From NCBI RefSeq assembly GCF_900115975.1, contig NZ_FOYM01000005.1:62001-126000 (forward strand): 64,000 bases of DNA, written 5' to 3'. The notes under the pieces are model-generated. The model was not told the origin of the DNA. It saw nothing but the letters and a program-made list of their open reading frames with translations, and ran no database searches. The position numbers were made by a program, and so were the translations under genes. Numbering within the stretch: the stretch's first letter is position 1; every line of letters begins with the position of its first letter. Positions 2,297 to 46,400 of the stretch are shown here, piece by piece. Source of the DNA: Desulfoscipio geothermicus DSM 3669 (lineage in GTDB: Bacteria; Bacillota; Desulfotomaculia; Desulfotomaculales; Desulfallaceae).

Positions 2297-3105
2297 TGTA
2301 CAGCCTCCTTTTGCCGGTAACGGGTGTAAAAGTCCGGGTTATTTTTTCTCACCAGCACCCCGCGCCAGAAATGATTTTGCTGCTCGCTTTCCTCCATGTT
2401 TTGAAACTTGTTTAAAGGTATGGCTTTTTCTTTGAACATTTCCAGCATCTGCACCGCATCGCCGATTTTATTATACCGGCCGTAGTAGGTGGGGCAGGGG
2501 GTCAGCAGTTCCACCATGGAAAAGCCCCTGGTATTTAATGCTTCAAGAATATATTTGTGCATTTCCCGTACGTGATAGACCGTGCTTCGGGCCACGTAAT
2601 TGGCTCCGGCTTCCGCTGCCAACCGGCACAGGTCCAGCGCGGCGCCGGTTTTGCCTTGCCGGGAAGTGCTGGTCAAACTGTCTTCCGGGGTGGAAGGAGA
2701 ATACTGGCCGCCGGTCATGCCATAGTTCAAATTGTTGGCTACTATGGCGGTGATGTTGATGTTCCGGCGGGCGGCATGCAGTAAATGGTTCAGTCCGATG
2801 GCGCCGCAATCGCCGTCGCCCATCAGGCAAACGACGGTTAGCTCGGGGTTGGACAGGTGGATGCCGGTGGCAAAGGCCAGGGTGCGCCCGTGGGTGCCCT
2901 GGAAGCGGTGAAAATTCACGTAATCGCCGGCCCGGCCGGAACAGCCGATACCCGACGCCAGCACAGCTTTTTCCCGGGGAATGCCCAAAACGGCCAACCC
3001 CAGCAGCAAATGTTTCAGGATAACTCCGTTTCCACATCCCGGGCACCACATATGGGGTAATTTTTTATGGGCCAGGTATTGGTCGATCTCTTTCAGGTTA
3101 TTCAA
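2293..3105 (-). CDS. korB: 2-oxoacid:ferredoxin oxidoreductase, beta (TPP) subunit (KorB-like)
   Basis: This protein of about 270 residues binds thiamine pyrophosphate. The N-terminal MWCPGCGNG is the family's cysteine motif. The TPP/Mg site is GDGDCGAIGLNH followed by a downstream NNLNYGMTGGQ. It forms the catalytic beta subunit of the Kor complex and sits between korA and korC. I place the start at TTG 3105 because GGGAGGTG lies about 7 bases upstream. An in-frame GTG at 3114 overlaps that Shine-Dalgarno site and is less likely. The 5' end overlaps the 3' end of korA, indicating translational coupling. Confidence 0.9.
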   Translation of the reverse strand: MNNLKEIDQYLAHKKLPHMWCPGCGNGVILKHLLLGLAVLGIPREKAVLASGIGCSGRAGDYVNFHRFQGTHGRTLAFATGIHLSNPELTVVCLMGDGDCGAIGLNHLLHAARRNINITAIVANNLNYGMTGGQYSPSTPEDSLTSTSRQGKTGAALDLCRLAAEAGANYVARSTVYHVREMHKYILEALNTRGFSMVELLTPCPTYYGRYNKIGDAVQMLEMFKEKAIPLNKFQNMEESEQQNHFWRGVLVRKNNPDFYTRYRQKEAVQ

Positions 3106-39447: not shown

Positions 39448-39536
39448 GCCGGAGTGGCGGAACTGGCAGACGCACGGGACTTAAAATCCCGGGCCCTGCA
39501 AAGGGCGTACCGGTTCGATTCCGGTCTCCGGCACCA
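39448..39536 (+). tRNA. tRNA-Leu (anticodon TAA)
   Basis: This 89-base class II tRNA has acceptor GCCGGAG/CTCCGGC, anticodon loop CTTAAAA (anticodon TAA), a long variable arm (GGGCCCTGCAAAGGGC) and encoded CCA. Its last 21 bases recur exactly at 45957-45977, so the gene is a probable integration site. Confidence 0.95.
39516..39536 (+). repeat. left 21-bp direct repeat (putative att site in tRNA-Leu)
   Basis: This stretch is the T-arm and acceptor 3' end of tRNA-Leu including CCA. It is identical to 45957-45977. Confidence 0.85.
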
Positions 39537-39547
39537 TTTGATATGCC

Positions 39548-39588
39548 AGTTAATGCATCCCCGTTTTCGGTGGTGCATTAACTTTTTT
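39548..39588 (+). terminator. terminator just inside the island, behind tRNA-Leu
   Basis: AGTTAATGCA/TGCATTAACT is a 10-bp stem followed by a T run. It now ends the tRNA-Leu transcript; the probable original terminator is at 45993. Confidence 0.85.
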
Positions 39589-39777
39589 ATGCCCACCAAA
39601 TGGCTGCGCATTGGATCGGCAAAAAAGTTTATATACATAATGCCATTATTCGGGGCTAGTTCAAGATTATAAATAAATCGTCTTAAAAAATTCTCTTTTT
39701 CGGTATTAGTTCCTGTATTTCAAATCTCTTAGCCGCGTTTAAGATAATTTAATAAAATTTTTTCATCCAATGACTTA

Positions 39778-39993
39778 GCTTTTAGACGGTCTTTTTCTAA
39801 TGCCATTGAGCGGGATTTGAAGAATGCTACTTATGATGAATGCTATACAACTCGTTTGGTGCGTAGCCGACCAGTGCTGGATGCCTTTTCGGCATGGCTT
39901 AAGACCCAGTCTGCTCGGGTGCTACCCAAAAGCGCACTAGCTAGAGGCCAGGCAATTAAGTACTGCCGTCACGAATGCATATTTCCCTTATGA
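39778..39993 (+). pseudogene. IS66-family transposase (TnpC) remnant
   Basis: Translated in one frame this stretch reads NAIERDLKNATYDECYTTR, then SRPVLDAFSAWLKTQSARVLPKSALA and QAIKYC, before TGA at 39991. That is the C-terminal catalytic part of IS66 transposases (IER...RSxPxLDAFxAWL...PKSxLgxAIxY). The rest of the gene and its accessory ORFs are missing and no terminal repeats are recognisable. Elsewhere in 39590-40208 I see no gene. Confidence 0.8.
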
Positions 39994-40208
39994 TGAAGTT
40001 ACTCCAAAAGCCACCTTTTCTTGAATAAGTTGGGCTTTTTATTCCATTATACATTTTCGCTTCAGATTTAAGGTACTCCCGCATTGTCCTTCATGACATC
40101 CCTCGGCTCATCCATAGTTCTAGCACTATAAAGCGGATAATTTTGGCTCGTTCATGGTCTATTTCCCAAAGAAGTTGCCCCGACTATATCATATGACCTA
40201 TTTTAATA

Positions 40209-40237
40209 TTGACGAAACAAAAAAAGTGTAGTAAACT
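40209..40237 (+). promoter_or_regulatory. sigma-A promoter of the island operon
   Basis: TTGACG, a 17-base spacer and TAAACT. The three operators follow immediately downstream. Confidence 0.75.
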
Positions 40238-40247
40238 AACCATTAAA

Positions 40248-40285
40248 GTAAACGTTTACGTAAAACGTTTACAGTAAGCGCTTAC
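40248..40285. promoter_or_regulatory. three adjoining LacI-type operators
   Basis: GTAAACGTTTAC (40248-40259), GTAAAACGTTTAC (40260-40272) and GTAAGCGCTTAC (40274-40285) lie end to end over the transcription start region. Central CG flanked by symmetric arms is the usual LacI-family operator form. The LacI-type gene two genes downstream is the obvious ligand-responsive repressor. Confidence 0.85.
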
Positions 40286-40332
40286 GCATGCTATCAATTT
40301 TAAGAAAATAATAACAAAGAGGGGGATTTGTT

Positions 40333-41256
40333 ATGGCAAAGAAATGGAGAGGGGTTTATCCTGCGGTTTTATTACCATTTAAAGATGATTACAGTATTGA
40401 TGAGCAAGGTTTTCGCAAATTGGTAAGATGGGTTGCAAGTCATGATGGTATTGAGGGAATTGTTGTTAATGGACATACTGGAGAGATAAATGCATTATTG
40501 CCGGAAGAACGGGCACAAGTTGTTCGTATTGCCGCAGATGAGTTAAAGGGGAGTAAACCGGTAATTTCCGGTGTTTCCGCTGAAGGGACAATTGAAGCTA
40601 TTCAACATGCAAGAGCAGTGCAAGAAGCCGGCGGTTCGGGAATATTGCTAATGCCACCTCATTCATGGCTGCGCTTTGGAATGCAACCGGATTCCACCGT
40701 AAAGTTCTTTGAAGACGTTGCGAATGCTGTAGATATTTCCATTGTTGTGCACCAATATCCAAAGTGGACTAAGGCTTCCTATACGACTGATCAATTATTG
40801 AAAATGGTTAGTGTCCCCAATATTGATTGTGTTAAAATAGGAACCAGAGAAATGGCGCAATATGAAGTAGATGTAAGGGCATTGAAGCAGCACGCGCCGG
40901 ATGTATCTATTCTTACTTGCCACGATGAATACTTATTACCCACATTAATCCAGGGGGTTGATGGGGCACTGGTAGGCTTCGCTAGTTTCGTACCGGATTT
41001 AATTGCCGCATTGGTTAAAGCTGTTTGGGATAATAACCTACCGGAAGCTCTTAAAATTTATGATCGAATCTATGAACTCAAGCATGCGGTATATAAGATG
41101 GGGGAACCTTCTGCCACTGCACATGCCCGCATGAAAGAAGCAATGTTTCAGAGAGGTTTAATTTCTAGTGCCTTAACTCGTCCGCCTGTTCTTCCATTAA
41201 CGGATAAGGAGAAAGAAGAGATTAGTCAAGGATTAAAAAGTGTTGGATTATTATAA
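40333..41256 (+). CDS. DapA-family (dihydrodipicolinate synthase/N-acetylneuraminate lyase) aldolase
   Basis: This 307-residue TIM-barrel protein has the family's YPAVLLPFKDDYSID start, NGHTGEINALLPEER, the Tyr in VHQYP and the Schiff-base Lys in IDCVKIGTRE. The family covers DapA and lyases or dehydratases of sugar acids. The location beside a TRAP transporter and LacI regulator argues for catabolism of an imported carboxylated compound rather than lysine synthesis. ATG 40333 has AGAGGGGGA upstream. It is the first gene of an AT-rich operon inside the island. Confidence 0.85.
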   Translation: MAKKWRGVYPAVLLPFKDDYSIDEQGFRKLVRWVASHDGIEGIVVNGHTGEINALLPEERAQVVRIAADELKGSKPVISGVSAEGTIEAIQHARAVQEAGGSGILLMPPHSWLRFGMQPDSTVKFFEDVANAVDISIVVHQYPKWTKASYTTDQLLKMVSVPNIDCVKIGTREMAQYEVDVRALKQHAPDVSILTCHDEYLLPTLIQGVDGALVGFASFVPDLIAALVKAVWDNNLPEALKIYDRIYELKHAVYKMGEPSATAHARMKEAMFQRGLISSALTRPPVLPLTDKEKEEISQGLKSVGLL

Positions 41257-41340
41257 AACCTATAAAAAGGATTGTCTTTTTAAAATTTTAAAATAAAATA
41301 AAAAATAAGAAAAAAGATCAATTTTAAGGGTGGTAACCGA

Positions 41341-42351
41341 ATGGGTGTAAATATAAAAGATATAGCAAAAGCCGCAGGAGTATCAACTGCAACGGTTTCC
41401 CGAGTTATCTCCGGAAAACCCGGGGTAGGCGAAGAAACAAAGAAAAAGATAAAACAGATCATCGAAGAAATGGGTTACCGCCCAAATTTGGGTGCAAGAG
41501 GATTAGCTAAAAGGCGGACTGGAAATATAGGGATTGTATCTCCAAGGCAAAGTAATATTGTCCTTGGCAATCCCTTTTTTATTAGCATCTTAGAGGGAGT
41601 TTCCCATGTATTGGATCAGCATGATTATAATATGGTGCTTTCATTTACGCTTTCTCAACAAAAACGATTACTGGAAACACATTCCGTGGATGGTATCTTG
41701 TTATTTGCCGCTAGAATAGGGGATCCCGTCTTAGAGTGGTTAGACGCATCAAAATTACCCACAGTTGTAATTGGCAGTTATCAGGACGAAAATGCCTATC
41801 CGAGTGTGCGGCCGGATGATGAAGGGGGAATCTATCAGGCGGTAAAATATTTGATCGCCAAGGGACATACCAGGATTTGTTTTGTAAATGGTCCCTTAAG
41901 TTCTATCAAAAGTATTCGCTGCCGGAACGGATATTTAAAAGCAATGGAGGAAGAGAAATTGGAAGTTACCTCTGAGCAGATTATTGAAGTTCCTGAATAT
42001 GATGTTCTGGTAAGTCTAAAGACAATGAATCGGTTATTTAAAGAAGGAAAGTTTCAATCTACTGCAGTGGTATGTGCTTCGGATTATCTTGCACTGGGTG
42101 TAATGAAAGCAGCAATATCCAACGGGATTGCCATACCAAATGATCTATCATTGATAGGGTTTGGCGATGTGCCATTTGCAGAATTATCGCACCCATCCAT
42201 AACCACCATGCATACGGATCTTAAAAAAATTGGTTCACAAGCTGCACAAATGCTGATTAACGAGATTAAAGGCAAGAAAATTAGAAAAAGAAATAGAGTT
42301 TTTCCAATGGAATTAGTTGAACGCCAGTCTGTTTGTGCCTTGAAACAATAA
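41341..42351 (+). CDS. LacI-family transcriptional regulator
   Basis: This 336-residue repressor has an N-terminal LacI helix-turn-helix (IKDIAKAAGVSTATVSRVISGKPGVGEETKKKI) with the hinge RPNLGARGLA. The periplasmic-binding-protein-like ligand domain follows (about residues 62-330; IGFGDVPFAELSHPSITTMHTD is typical). It should bind the three palindromes at 40248-40285 upstream of its own operon and release them on binding a pathway metabolite. ATG 41341 has AAGGGTGG upstream. The ligand is unknown. Confidence 0.92.
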   Translation: MGVNIKDIAKAAGVSTATVSRVISGKPGVGEETKKKIKQIIEEMGYRPNLGARGLAKRRTGNIGIVSPRQSNIVLGNPFFISILEGVSHVLDQHDYNMVLSFTLSQQKRLLETHSVDGILLFAARIGDPVLEWLDASKLPTVVIGSYQDENAYPSVRPDDEGGIYQAVKYLIAKGHTRICFVNGPLSSIKSIRCRNGYLKAMEEEKLEVTSEQIIEVPEYDVLVSLKTMNRLFKEGKFQSTAVVCASDYLALGVMKAAISNGIAIPNDLSLIGFGDVPFAELSHPSITTMHTDLKKIGSQAAQMLINEIKGKKIRKRNRVFPMELVERQSVCALKQ

Positions 42352-42375
42352 TTAATAACCGAAAGCGAGGAATAT

Positions 42376-43332
42376 ATGATGATCTCCCGCAATATCAAGG
42401 TTTTATTCCTTGCACTCCTTATCCTCTCTCTAGTTGGATGTAGTGCAAATAAGGATGAATATGTAAATGTCGGGACAGCAGGAACAGGAGGAGCATATTA
42501 TCCCATCGGGATAGCAATATCGGAGATTTTAACCAAAGATTTAGGGGTAAACTCAACAGCCCAAGTTACCGGGGGAGCGGTTGAAAACGTTACTCTCGTT
42601 AATAAAGGTGCGACTGAAATCGCTATTACCCAAAGTCCCATGGCATATGCAGGATTTAATGGCACCGCGCCATATGAAAGTAAAAATGATAATATCGCCA
42701 CATTGTTTAATGGGCTTTCCAAAGGTGTGTTTCAGTTAGTGGTTTCAGAATCATCGGGAATTAATTCCGTCGCCGATCTCAAAGGGAAAAAGGTTGTATT
42801 AGGACCTTCCGGTGGTGGAGCTATTAACGTTATTACGGATATCCTCAGTGTGTATAACTTTTCTTTAGCTGATATCCAGCCTACGTATGTTTCATATAGT
42901 GAAGGAGTTTCAATGTTATCGGATAACAACGTGGATGCGGTCATAGTCCAATCTGCAGCACCTGCCGCCGCCATCAAAGAACTTGAAGCCTCTGGAAAAA
43001 AATTTGAATTAATTTCCATTGAACCGGAAAAAATTAACCAACTATTAGAGAAATTTGCTTATTTGGACCAAATTACTCTTCCTAAAGATATGTACGGAAC
43101 AAATCAGGATATTAAAACGGTATATTTAACCAATATGATGATTGTAAAGAAAGATTTGGATGAGGATATGGTTTATAAGATCACCAAAGCAATCTTTGAG
43201 AACATAGAAAAAGTAAAGGAATCCCATCCCGCAGCAAAAGGATTTTCCTTAGAGGAAGCAGTTACCAGAACACCTATTCCGTTGCACCCCGGAGCAGCAA
43301 AATATTTTAAAGAAGTGGGAGTTTTAAAATAA
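42376..43332 (+). CDS. TAXI-family TRAP transporter solute-binding lipoprotein
   Basis: This 318-residue protein starts with a lipoprotein signal peptide (ending LSLVGC, lipobox Cys near residue 22). The TAXI fold follows: VGTAGTGGAYYPIGIAISEIL, IAITQSPMAYAGFNG and a C-terminal HPGAAKYFKEVGVL. It would capture a small organic acid or amino acid outside the cell and hand it to the adjacent permease. AGCGAGGAAT precedes ATG 42376. The permease starts 1 base after its stop. Confidence 0.9.
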   Translation: MMISRNIKVLFLALLILSLVGCSANKDEYVNVGTAGTGGAYYPIGIAISEILTKDLGVNSTAQVTGGAVENVTLVNKGATEIAITQSPMAYAGFNGTAPYESKNDNIATLFNGLSKGVFQLVVSESSGINSVADLKGKKVVLGPSGGGAINVITDILSVYNFSLADIQPTYVSYSEGVSMLSDNNVDAVIVQSAAPAAAIKELEASGKKFELISIEPEKINQLLEKFAYLDQITLPKDMYGTNQDIKTVYLTNMMIVKKDLDEDMVYKITKAIFENIEKVKESHPAAKGFSLEEAVTRTPIPLHPGAAKYFKEVGVLK

Positions 43333-43333
43333 G

Positions 43334-45232
43334 ATGCTATCTTACATTCAGGCTCAAAAAATAGGGCGAATATTACTCATAATTAATTCAATATTTGCAC
43401 TATATACTGCGGGATTTGGTTTATTATCCGCAACTGCTCAAAGGGGATTGCACTGGCTTTTTCTATCTGTTAGCTTATTTATTCTTTATCAATCGACGAG
43501 TAAGGAAAAACCCTTATGGGGTAAAAGGTTTTCCACCATATGGAATACCCTGGTTCTTTGCGGCGCTTTTTCCAGCGGGATCTATCTTCTTGCGGTTTGG
43601 CAAGATCGGGTCTTGAAAGTAGGGGCAACCCCTATTTGGGATACATTCATGGCAGTAGTTATGATCGTCGTTGTACTGGAAGCCACTCGAAAAACGACTG
43701 GGAAATTCTTGATGATTACAGCGCTGCTTTTTATTGCTTACTCCCTATTAGGGCCATATTTTCCAGCCCCTTTAGGGCATAGGGGGCAATCGCTAGAACG
43801 GTTAGTCAACTTTCTTTATTTTACAACAGAGGGTATTTTTGGGATTCCCATGGGGATATCAGCGACTTTTATTATCGTGTTTGTGCTATTTGGCTCTTTT
43901 TTGGAGAAATTTGGCGGTGGAAAATGGTTTATTGATATCTCGTATGCATTAACCGGCAGATTCCGAGCCGGGCCGGCCAAAACTGCAGTGATTTCCAGCG
44001 GGTTGATGGGAATGTTATCCGGAGCTCCGGTTGCAAATGTTGCCACTACCGGGACATTTACCATACCATTAATGAAGAAGGTAGGGTTTAAATCACATTT
44101 AGCCGGGGCAATCGAGGCGGTTGCTTCCACCGGCGGGATGATTACTCCTCCTATTATGGGAGCAGGTGCCTTTATTATGGCCGAGTATTTAAATATTCCT
44201 TATACGGAAGTTGCGGCAGCAGCTATTATTCCTGCATTTCTCTTTTACTTTTCTTTAATGCTTGGTATTGATTCCAAAGCTGTTAAGGAAGGTATCGTTG
44301 GAATAGAGGCCAAGCAGCTTCCCAAAATAAGCGATACCATTAAAAAACGGGGACACCTGGCCATTCCTTTAATATCCCTTATTGGAATGATCTTAATTGG
44401 TTGGAGTCCGATGAAGGCTGCGTTCTGGTCTACTATATTGTCTATCTTAATCGCTTATGTTAGTCCAAAAACGCGGCCTAATATGGAGAAGATTTTGCAA
44501 GCGCTGGAAAATGGATCAAAAGAAGTAATTTCTATAGCTGCAGCTTGTGCCAGTGCAGGTATTATCGTAGGGGTTATCGCAATAACCGGTCTTGGAGCAA
44601 AAATATCCTATACCTTGATTGAGCTTTCAAACGGAAGTATAATTATTGCTTTAATACTAACCGCGATCATCTCGATTATTCTGGGATTTGGCATGCCACC
44701 AACAGCAGTCTACATTATTTTGGTATCCATTCTCGTACCGCCCCTTGTAGAGTTGGGGGTTATGCCAATAGCGGCGCATATGTTTCTATTCTTCTTCTCT
44801 ACAATTGCTGCCTTAACACCACCTGTGGCTATTACCTCATATGCGGCAGCAGCAATTGCTAAAGCCAACCCTAACAGGACAGGCGTTGCTTCTTTCCGGT
44901 TAGGCATATTAGCTTATATTATCCCGTTTATGTTTGTCTTTTCACCAAGTTTACTGTTGGTGGGAACACCGGAAACCATTACCCTTTCTATCTTAACTTC
45001 TACCATAGGGGTCTGTTGCTTGGTTGCCGGGATGGAAGGCTTTCTATTTTTTAAATGGGGTTGGATAACCAGAGTACTACTGGCAATCTCGGCGTTTCTC
45101 TTTATAGATGGCGGTTGGGTTACGGATGTTACTGCTTTAACTGGAGTGATGATTGCATTTCTGATCCAATATTTTATGGGAATAAAAAGGAACAGAAAAG
45201 TAATGTTAAATACACAGAAAAAGTTTTTATAA
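43334..45232 (+). CDS. TRAP transporter fused DctQM permease
   Basis: This 632-residue integral membrane protein fuses the small DctQ-like part (first ~150 residues, four helices) with the large DctM part. The DctM part is recognisable from GSFLEKFGGGKWFIDISYALTGRFRAGPAKTAVISSGLMGMLSGAPVANVATTGTF and FGMPPTAVYIILVSILVPPLVELGV. Such fused permeases work with TAXI-type binding proteins, using a cation gradient. It starts 1 base after the binding-protein gene and ends the island operon. No terminator is obvious behind it. Confidence 0.92.
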   Translation: MLSYIQAQKIGRILLIINSIFALYTAGFGLLSATAQRGLHWLFLSVSLFILYQSTSKEKPLWGKRFSTIWNTLVLCGAFSSGIYLLAVWQDRVLKVGATPIWDTFMAVVMIVVVLEATRKTTGKFLMITALLFIAYSLLGPYFPAPLGHRGQSLERLVNFLYFTTEGIFGIPMGISATFIIVFVLFGSFLEKFGGGKWFIDISYALTGRFRAGPAKTAVISSGLMGMLSGAPVANVATTGTFTIPLMKKVGFKSHLAGAIEAVASTGGMITPPIMGAGAFIMAEYLNIPYTEVAAAAIIPAFLFYFSLMLGIDSKAVKEGIVGIEAKQLPKISDTIKKRGHLAIPLISLIGMILIGWSPMKAAFWSTILSILIAYVSPKTRPNMEKILQALENGSKEVISIAAACASAGIIVGVIAITGLGAKISYTLIELSNGSIIIALILTAIISIILGFGMPPTAVYIILVSILVPPLVELGVMPIAAHMFLFFFSTIAALTPPVAITSYAAAAIAKANPNRTGVASFRLGILAYIIPFMFVFSPSLLLVGTPETITLSILTSTIGVCCLVAGMEGFLFFKWGWITRVLLAISAFLFIDGGWVTDVTALTGVMIAFLIQYFMGIKRNRKVMLNTQKKFL

Positions 45233-45956
45233 TGCGGTTATTTCTCGCCGTGAAGTCTCCGTCCTTAAGTAAAAAAGGGGCAGTAATTACTGGCGTGATT
45301 GTTTTTCTTGTTAGTATTGAAGGGAACCATTAATTTTTTAGTTCTCCAGTTACGGTAGCTCAGGGGAAAGGCATGCGGTAGCGCAACGGGATACGTGTAT
45401 AACACGGGACAAAGGGAAAAGTATCTTGTCCCACCAAGCTTTATTGGAACTAATTATAAAATTGGAACATCATATTAAATAATGCTTGCACCGGCTTACC
45501 CGTTGAAAGCAAGCAATAAGTTATTACATAAAAAGCAGATAAGGATTTTCTACCTGTCAGATAATGCGGTCATAGTCTATATCTAGCAAGATGAGTATTT
45601 CCGTATGTTGCCAGCGATCCAGAGTTTCCGGTTGAATTTTCTACCTTGCGATATGTTAAAGCCTGAGTTAGATTTTTTTTAAATAAAACGACAATTCTAA
45701 TTTATATTATATCTTACACTATGCAGTGGGACAGGGTACCTGCCCCAGTGCATAGTGCTGGAAAGAAAGTTTTGTGCCCATCTCGTCTAGGTTTATCCTG
45801 CGGAGTTACAAGGCACACCAGGGGCTTTCTTCTTTTGGTGGGCGTTTCAGCATAGCATCTCCAGGATGCCTATTTTATTTTAAGCCTTGCTTTGGGCGAT
45901 TTCTCTTTCGTTTTTGCTCTATTATGTGTTGTTCCGTAATAACTGACATATGAAAA
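45233..45956. other. gene-free right part of the island
   Basis: These 724 bases hold no frame I can support. They contain a structured stretch at 45345-45435 (stems CGTGT/ACACG and GGGACAA/TTGTCCC followed by ACCA), the GGGACAGG palindrome at 45717-45757 and short frames with stops. An integrase gene would be expected near this end of a tRNA-borne island but is not recognisable. Confidence 0.5.
45717..45757. repeat. GGGACAGG palindrome inside the island
   Basis: CACTATGCA and GTGGGACAGG face CCTGCCCCA and GTGCATAGTG around a GTAC centre, with two mismatches in about 20-base arms. The GGGACAGG core is shared with 6138-6200 and 31666-31715. Confidence 0.65.
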
Positions 45957-45977
45957 CGATTCCGGTCTCCGGCACCA
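45957..45977 (+). repeat. right 21-bp direct repeat (copy of tRNA-Leu 3' end)
   Basis: This is an exact copy of 39516-39536. The preceding bases do not continue the tRNA, so it is not part of a second tRNA gene. Confidence 0.85.
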
Positions 45978-45992
45978 ACCCATTTCATAACT

Positions 45993-46033
45993 CCCCGGAC
46001 CCTTTTCAGCGGGACCGGGGTTGTTCTTTTTTC
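45993..46033 (+). terminator. probable original terminator of tRNA-Leu
   Basis: CCCCGGACCC/GGGACCGGGG, with one central mismatch, is followed by TTGTTCTTTTTT. It lies 16 bases after the right copy of the tRNA end. From there to 46400 I see no supported gene. Confidence 0.75.
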
Positions 46034-46400
46034 TGAGTATTAACCTTTCCCTTTCCTTGCTGCCGAATGGATCAGGCCAAAATATTACATAAACAAGTCC
46101 TTCTTGGGGATCCAGTTCCAAACGGCGGATAAAATAAAAAAATTATTTAATTTCGAGTGGTACTCAAAAAAAGCCGATTTTCCTTAAAAAAAAGGATTAT
46201 GGGCATGATATACGATTCGGAGAACTCAAACGCTGCGGAAACCTATTACCGGAACCGTACCGGGCCGAATTTTTAGCTGAGATTGAAAGGTGTGCTATAC
46301 TCCGTTCGGAGACAAAAAGGATATTGGTCTAAACCATAACTTTTAATGATAAAATAAAAACTAAATGCAACACATGGTTAACAATATCAAGGAGAAAAAA

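Follow-up and report, generated by a model that had tools for sequence, protein, structure and literature searches.

Which enzyme could have placed 6.4 kb of AT-rich DNA behind a leucine tRNA gene of Desulfoscipio geothermicus DSM 3669? We analysed a stretch of 64,000 nucleotides around this locus (the window), for which a preliminary description proposed a genomic island inserted at the tRNA 3' end with no recognisable integrase. The integration target is tRNA-Leu(TAA) (39448-39536, plus strand), the sole tRNA of this kind that ARAGORN detects in the window.

A repeated tRNA 3' end bounds the island

The final 21 bases of tRNA-Leu(TAA), CGATTCCGGTCTCCGGCACCA, form the attL core (39516-39536, plus strand) and recur exactly, on the same strand, as the attR core at 45957-45977. 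With up to 3 mismatches allowed, the window contains no match to the core beyond these two, and 100 dinucleotide shuffles gave none. The interval between the copies has a GC content of 40.3% versus 50.6% in the remaining window, and the operon and IS66 remnant reported earlier are indeed found there, the operon comprising four genes. A tRNA gene and a displaced 3' fragment in the same orientation flanking foreign DNA is the geometry of tDNA islands as defined by Islander.

The right copy begins sharply at tRNA nucleotide 56 and ARAGORN finds no tRNA at this position. The sequence upstream of it is not a decayed tRNA body; it is a conserved element end common to genomes G007, G014 and G013. The preliminary description had named a decayed second tRNA gene as a finding that would undo its reading, and this is not what precedes the copy. 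It had also predicted an empty site joining 39536 to 45978, and such a junction is present in three relatives (G013, G014 and G011), whose tRNA is joined straight to the sequence that begins at 45978 in the window. The empty-site junction and the conserved element end support site-specific integration at the tRNA 3' end.

Remnants of two serine integrases

Each 21-bp copy is followed by a decayed minus-strand remnant of a large serine recombinase (LSR), A at 39579-40177 and B at 45948-46133, in contradiction with the claim that the island has no recognisable integrase. The C-terminal part of LSR A (39579-39821, minus strand, two in-frame stops) was identified by tblastn at E 1.5e-22, and at E 8e-23 with a C-terminal fragment derived from G034. 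Part of its "recombinase" domain (39971-40177, minus strand) is matched by four intact LSRs at E 4e-12 to 4e-9. An IS66 transposase fragment lies between these pieces (39817-39990, plus strand; PF03050, 22.2 bits, just below the cut-off of 23.1), and the matches at 39821-39579 and 40177-39971 derive from a single gene that it split. Only the recombinase-domain and C-terminal parts of LSR A are present in the window, the catalytic domain being absent. The decayed C-terminus of LSR B (45948-46133, minus strand) has 74% identity to its match (E 2.5e-25) and is part of a second element beyond the right repeat.

The integrase was reached through relatives of the tRNA 3' flank; in one of them, G034, the reading frame of this flank encodes a serine recombinase with one frameshift. 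Taken alone, the short remnants of the window have no significant Pfam domain, and their identification rests on tblastn with intact relatives; a set of 20 other, generic LSRs has no significant match at these positions. In analyses short of a dedicated tyrosine-recombinase profile search of its non-coding ends, the interval showed no recombinase of this family. The window's own element is dead. Since its genome has, at E 1e-20, no LSR of the clade described below besides the window remnant, the element can probably no longer move, short of the arrival of a related integrase.

Two elements in tandem at tRNA-Leu(TAA)

Element A has a left attP arm (GATATGCCAGTT, 39537-39560, plus strand), the inverted-repeat partner of the arm at its right end (AATAACTGACATATGAAAA, 45933-45956, plus strand). 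The right end is the one common to G007, G014 and G013, and is complementary to the left arm at 16 of 23 positions. One end of element B, with its own left attP arm (ACCCATTTCATAACTC) and a terminator hairpin, lies at 45978-46033 (plus strand); it is the sequence found directly after the tRNA in G013, G014 and G011. A hairpin with a T-run that would end the tRNA transcript lies at 39549-39588 (plus strand; fold of -20.2 kcal/mol, z -5.4) and another follows the right copy (-19.0 kcal/mol, z -2.1). Both were missed by a terminator scan, because of its loop and bulge limits, and detected by folding.

The hairpin beyond the right copy had been taken for the original terminator of the tRNA. We rejected it as the native terminator since the downstream reading frame matches an LSR C-terminus; with LSR remnants after both copies, it marks where another LSR element, module B, ends. 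The site downstream of the island was consequently already occupied and is not pristine chromosome. The earlier interpretation thus stands for site-specific integration and falls for the missing integrase and the terminator.

Module A follows the tRNA in G003, G004, G006, G007, G008 and G009, and module B in G011, G013 and G014. The two also occur in tandem: A precedes B in the window and at G013:4120817 (right end of A, then B), and B precedes A in G005:C91 (right end of B, then A). At the tRNA-Leu of G013, the tRNA is followed by B and, 77 kb further on, by a core copy with module A. The occurrence of A and B in either order among relatives identifies tRNA-Leu(TAA) as a tandem integration hotspot. 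No second boundary of element B is found in the window. Desulfotruncus arcticus has a 5.5-kb island with two A-type ends at tRNA-Leu(TAA) (L064, 2371-7962), whose cargo is an MCP-like chemotaxis protein and an HTH gene in place of the TRAP operon described below.

Symmetry of the attachment sites and size of the elements

The attP of 11 elements was rebuilt by joining right end, core and left arm, the arms coming from different genomes in two cases. With core positions numbered 1-21 (CCA end at 19-21), the two arms repeat each other in inverted orientation about a centre at 10.5, where pooled complementarity over the 11 sites is 62% versus 16-32% at other centres. For the window attP, the 16/23 complementarity at this centre is reached by 0 of 5000 shuffles. 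The centre holds in five site families (Leu-TAA A, Leu-TAA B, Cys, Gly and Leu-GAG); weaker dyads, reached by 27-274 of 5000 shuffles, are found at two Cys sites and at the L121 site. It falls between tRNA nucleotides 65 and 66, the boundary of T-stem and acceptor stem, which places the predicted crossover of the window at 39525/39526. These sites display the arrangement of LSR elements, inverted-repeat half-sites around a central 2-bp crossover, the crossover itself being a prediction. The dyad analysis suggests that tRNA nucleotides 66-76 (39526-39536, plus strand) originate from element A. In the reading frame of G034, the hairpin that would terminate the tRNA transcript falls within the 3' coding end of the integrase, implying that the element supplies acceptor strand, CCA and terminator together.

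Second core copies flank elements of very different size: a 94-kb ICE-like island, two elements of 4.7 kb and one of 5.8 kb. The 94-kb island lies at tRNA-Cys of Peptococcaceae BICA1-7 (L204-L208, G044:C15:119619-213852) with an intact serine integrase, and has genes for T2SSE-type and FtsK ATPases, a topoisomerase, methylases and a KAP NTPase. The 4.7-kb elements, found in Clostridia MAGs at tRNA-Gly(TCC) (L125, 433-5157, and L127), look like complete integrative elements; they encode an integrase, a Rep_trans-like protein (below the Pfam cut-off), an S24/XRE regulator and a small HTH protein. The 5.8-kb element at tRNA-Leu(GAG) carries a REP-type protein.

A clade of serine recombinases linked to tRNA genes

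Intact relatives of the remnants are LSRs of about 540-613 amino acids whose genes usually end, stop codon included, on the antisense strand of a tRNA 3' end; Desulfotruncus alcoholivorax and Desulfocucumis palustris have such an intact LSR at tRNA-Cys. In LSR integrases a resolvase catalytic domain is followed by a recombinase domain and a zinc ribbon; the intact relatives carry PF00239 and PF07508, and two of four also PF13408. With the C-terminal fragment of the G034 LSR, freed of any tRNA sequence, as query, a search at E 1e-20 across 113 genomes of the order returned 14 places including 39579-39821 (minus strand) of the window, and a tRNA gene for Cys, Leu-GAG or Leu-TAA adjoins 13 of them. 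A scan of named genomes gave 31 loci, 26 of them on contigs that continue past the LSR 3' end; 19 of these 26 have an antisense tRNA, adding Gly, Met and Glu as targets. With tRNA-Thr, contributed by the phylum sample, the targets across the clade are Cys, Leu-GAG, Leu-TAA, Gly, Met, Glu and Thr. The overlap of integrase and tRNA is commonly 22 bp, and the tRNA end, read in antisense, gives the C-terminal residues GGDTRI (Cys) or GVGGGT (Leu-GAG).

No tRNA was detected at the other 7 of the 26 named loci. One (L138) has a tRNA partly masked by N and two (L141 and L135) keep tRNA-like 3' ends at a decayed boundary; the remainder are L126/L128, L139 and L143. As a control, 40 LSRs were drawn from relatives by PF07508, and in no case does a tRNA lie within 500 bp of the LSR stop codon. 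This contrast with 19/26 does not compare sets of independent events since the clade members are related. Rerunning the controls for tmRNA revealed three of 40 that overlap ssrA by about 22 bp and one located 135 bp away, so the contrast is specific to tRNA and does not extend to every RNA gene.

The tRNA-linked LSRs are monophyletic (support 100/100), with several target changes in the tree, and are found in Bacillota and in Armatimonadota, Acidobacteriota and Melainabacteria MAGs. Phage and plasmid collections yielded only distant LSRs, at 22-28% identity among the matches listed, and a PDB sequence search with an intact LSR returned nothing at E 0.01. A clade LSR lies beside a tRNA-Leu(TAA) with a degraded 5' part in a 62-kb viral contig (L202) and at L209, possibly a prophage with a longer stretch of the tRNA than the 21 bp that are usual. 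Judging from these sequences, we consider it likely that the clade is specialised in tRNA genes: its members would recombine at nucleotides 65/66, keep their C-terminus on the tRNA antisense strand, switch repeatedly between tRNA species and drive elements of 4.7 kb to 94 kb.

A foreign operon as cargo

Three LacI-type palindromic operators (GTAAACGTTTAC, GTAAAACGTTTAC, GTAAGCGCTTAC; 40248-40285) precede four plus-strand genes. They encode a lyase/aldolase of the DHDPS family (40333-41256; PF00701, E 2.5e-42), a LacI-family repressor (41341-42351; PF00356 and PF13377), a TAXI-family TRAP binding protein (42376-43332; TIGR02122, above cut-off) and a fused TRAP permease (43334-45232; TIGR02123, above cut-off). 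No close relative of the operon was found in the class outside the window's genome. Relatives of it occur at 52-55% identity in four other genomes of the phylum sample, a distance at which the donor could not be named; across similar operons elsewhere in the phylum, the DHDPS and TAXI proteins have about 52-56% identity. No relaxase or conjugation gene is found among the ORFs of the window within the island. The LacI/DHDPS/TAXI-TRAP operon is foreign and retained by the dead element.

Origin of the island

We privilege, as very likely, the explanation that the island is a decayed integrative element, A, whose own LSR inserted it at the tRNA-Leu(TAA) 3' end beside an older LSR element, B. Reading all recombination steps from sequence, we infer that a catalytically active LSR would have acted on an attP of about 70 bp, in which two inverted-repeat arms flank a copy of tRNA nucleotides 56-76, and exchanged strands with the tRNA gene at nucleotides 65/66. 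The acceptor strand, CCA end and terminator of the tRNA would have been replaced by those of element A, which would keep the tRNA functional. In its intact state the integrase gene presumably ran toward the tRNA, its last codons being the antisense of the tRNA 3' end as in intact relatives. The IS66 insertion, deletions and stop codons that destroyed integrase A would have come later, leaving the operon stranded as cargo.

A classical tyrosine-integrase tDNA island that lost its integrase, the LSR fragments being later insertions or unrelated debris, would fit the use of tRNA genes by about half of all islands through tyrosine integrases (PMC4383910), and the 21-bp block from T-loop to CCA resembles the footprint of such enzymes. 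We nevertheless hold this origin to be improbable: LSR remnants occupy the same place in the same orientation beside both tRNA copies, the genes of intact relatives run into tRNA 3' ends and usually have their stop codon within the tRNA, and the attP arms are symmetric inverted repeats with one fixed centre, as would be expected of serine recombinases. That no tyrosine recombinase showed in the interval, with the scope given above, points the same way. The IS66 fragment within the island might instead suggest that homologous recombination or IS66 transposition captured the tRNA ends without any site-specific step. That the same boundary architecture with different cargo is present in at least four other genomes, and that IS66 sits inside the integrase remnant, away from the boundaries, makes this very improbable.

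Genes for tRNA duplicate and decay, and the second copy could in principle be a duplicate of this kind, the operon having come by other means; no tool result supports this here. The sharp start of the copy at nucleotide 56 after the element end of G007, G014 and G013, the ARAGORN result and the empty-site junctions of relatives all speak against a duplicate, which we regard as extremely improbable. We therefore retain integration of element A by its own serine recombinase.

Large serine recombinases had been thought not to use tRNA genes; that of the 6.4-kb element very probably did. If true, a tRNA-specialised LSR clade contradicts the stated view that tRNA genes are used by tyrosine integrases only. 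A literature search that took in few subscription papers and none of the TIGER data tables found no paper on serine integrases at tRNA genes, and an earlier report may exist. Serine integrases are prized tools of genome engineering. A clade that spares a conserved essential gene and has switched targets many times makes the evolution of their site choice testable.

Comparison with known systems

The nearest precedent comes from Dehalococcoides, whose tmRNA (ssrA) islands have the serine recombinase DsiB (McMurdie et al. 2011, PMC3146451). There too the LSR adjoins the site, a direct repeat of about 20 bp covers the 3' end of an RNA gene from the T-loop and is embedded in the integrase gene, leaving the stop codon unclear, and islands with catabolic cargo lie in tandem. 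As in the DsiB islands, the integrase 3' end overlaps a repeat whose first base lies in the T-loop: among intact relatives the overlap with the tRNA is at least about 22 bp, and the window repeat starts at nucleotide 56. The target differs, tRNA-Leu(TAA) here versus the tmRNA 3' end there, and DsiB has a proposed partner, DsiA, and a conserved six-gene module, of which nothing is seen here. Serine recombinases that overlap or abut tmRNA genes also exist in relatives (L147, L171, L174 and L219-L221). The window's genome itself has an intact 531-aa LSR (L176, G000:C63, 928-2523, plus strand) that, like DsiB, overlaps the 3' end of the tmRNA (2502-2860, minus strand), here over about 22 bp; a second copy of the ssrA core was not found in this genome. 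The five tmRNA-linked LSRs placed in our tree (L147, L171 and L219-L221), which does not include DsiB, form a lineage separate from the tRNA-linked clade. The window's element therefore resembles an ssrA island in the way it works, without being one.

Firmicute elements of the Tn4451/TndX type, IMEs and ICEs reviewed in PMC5704250, are likewise integrated by a single LSR. They share a very short sequence with their target (2 bp for Tn4451) and disrupted dispensable genes in the cases reviewed, whereas the element at tRNA-Leu(TAA) has a 21-bp tRNA segment in common with its target and restores the target gene. Intact clade LSRs match the full-length profile of SCCmec CcrB weakly (E 2.7e-9 and 8.8e-14), at 36-51 bits versus a cut-off of 900, and differ from it in target and element type. 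With Islander tDNA islands (PMC4383910) the locus shares the tRNA gene with its displaced 3' fragment in the same orientation, the island between them and the tandem arrays. Those islands bear tyrosine-family integrases, whereas the remnants at tRNA-Leu(TAA) are those of serine recombinases.
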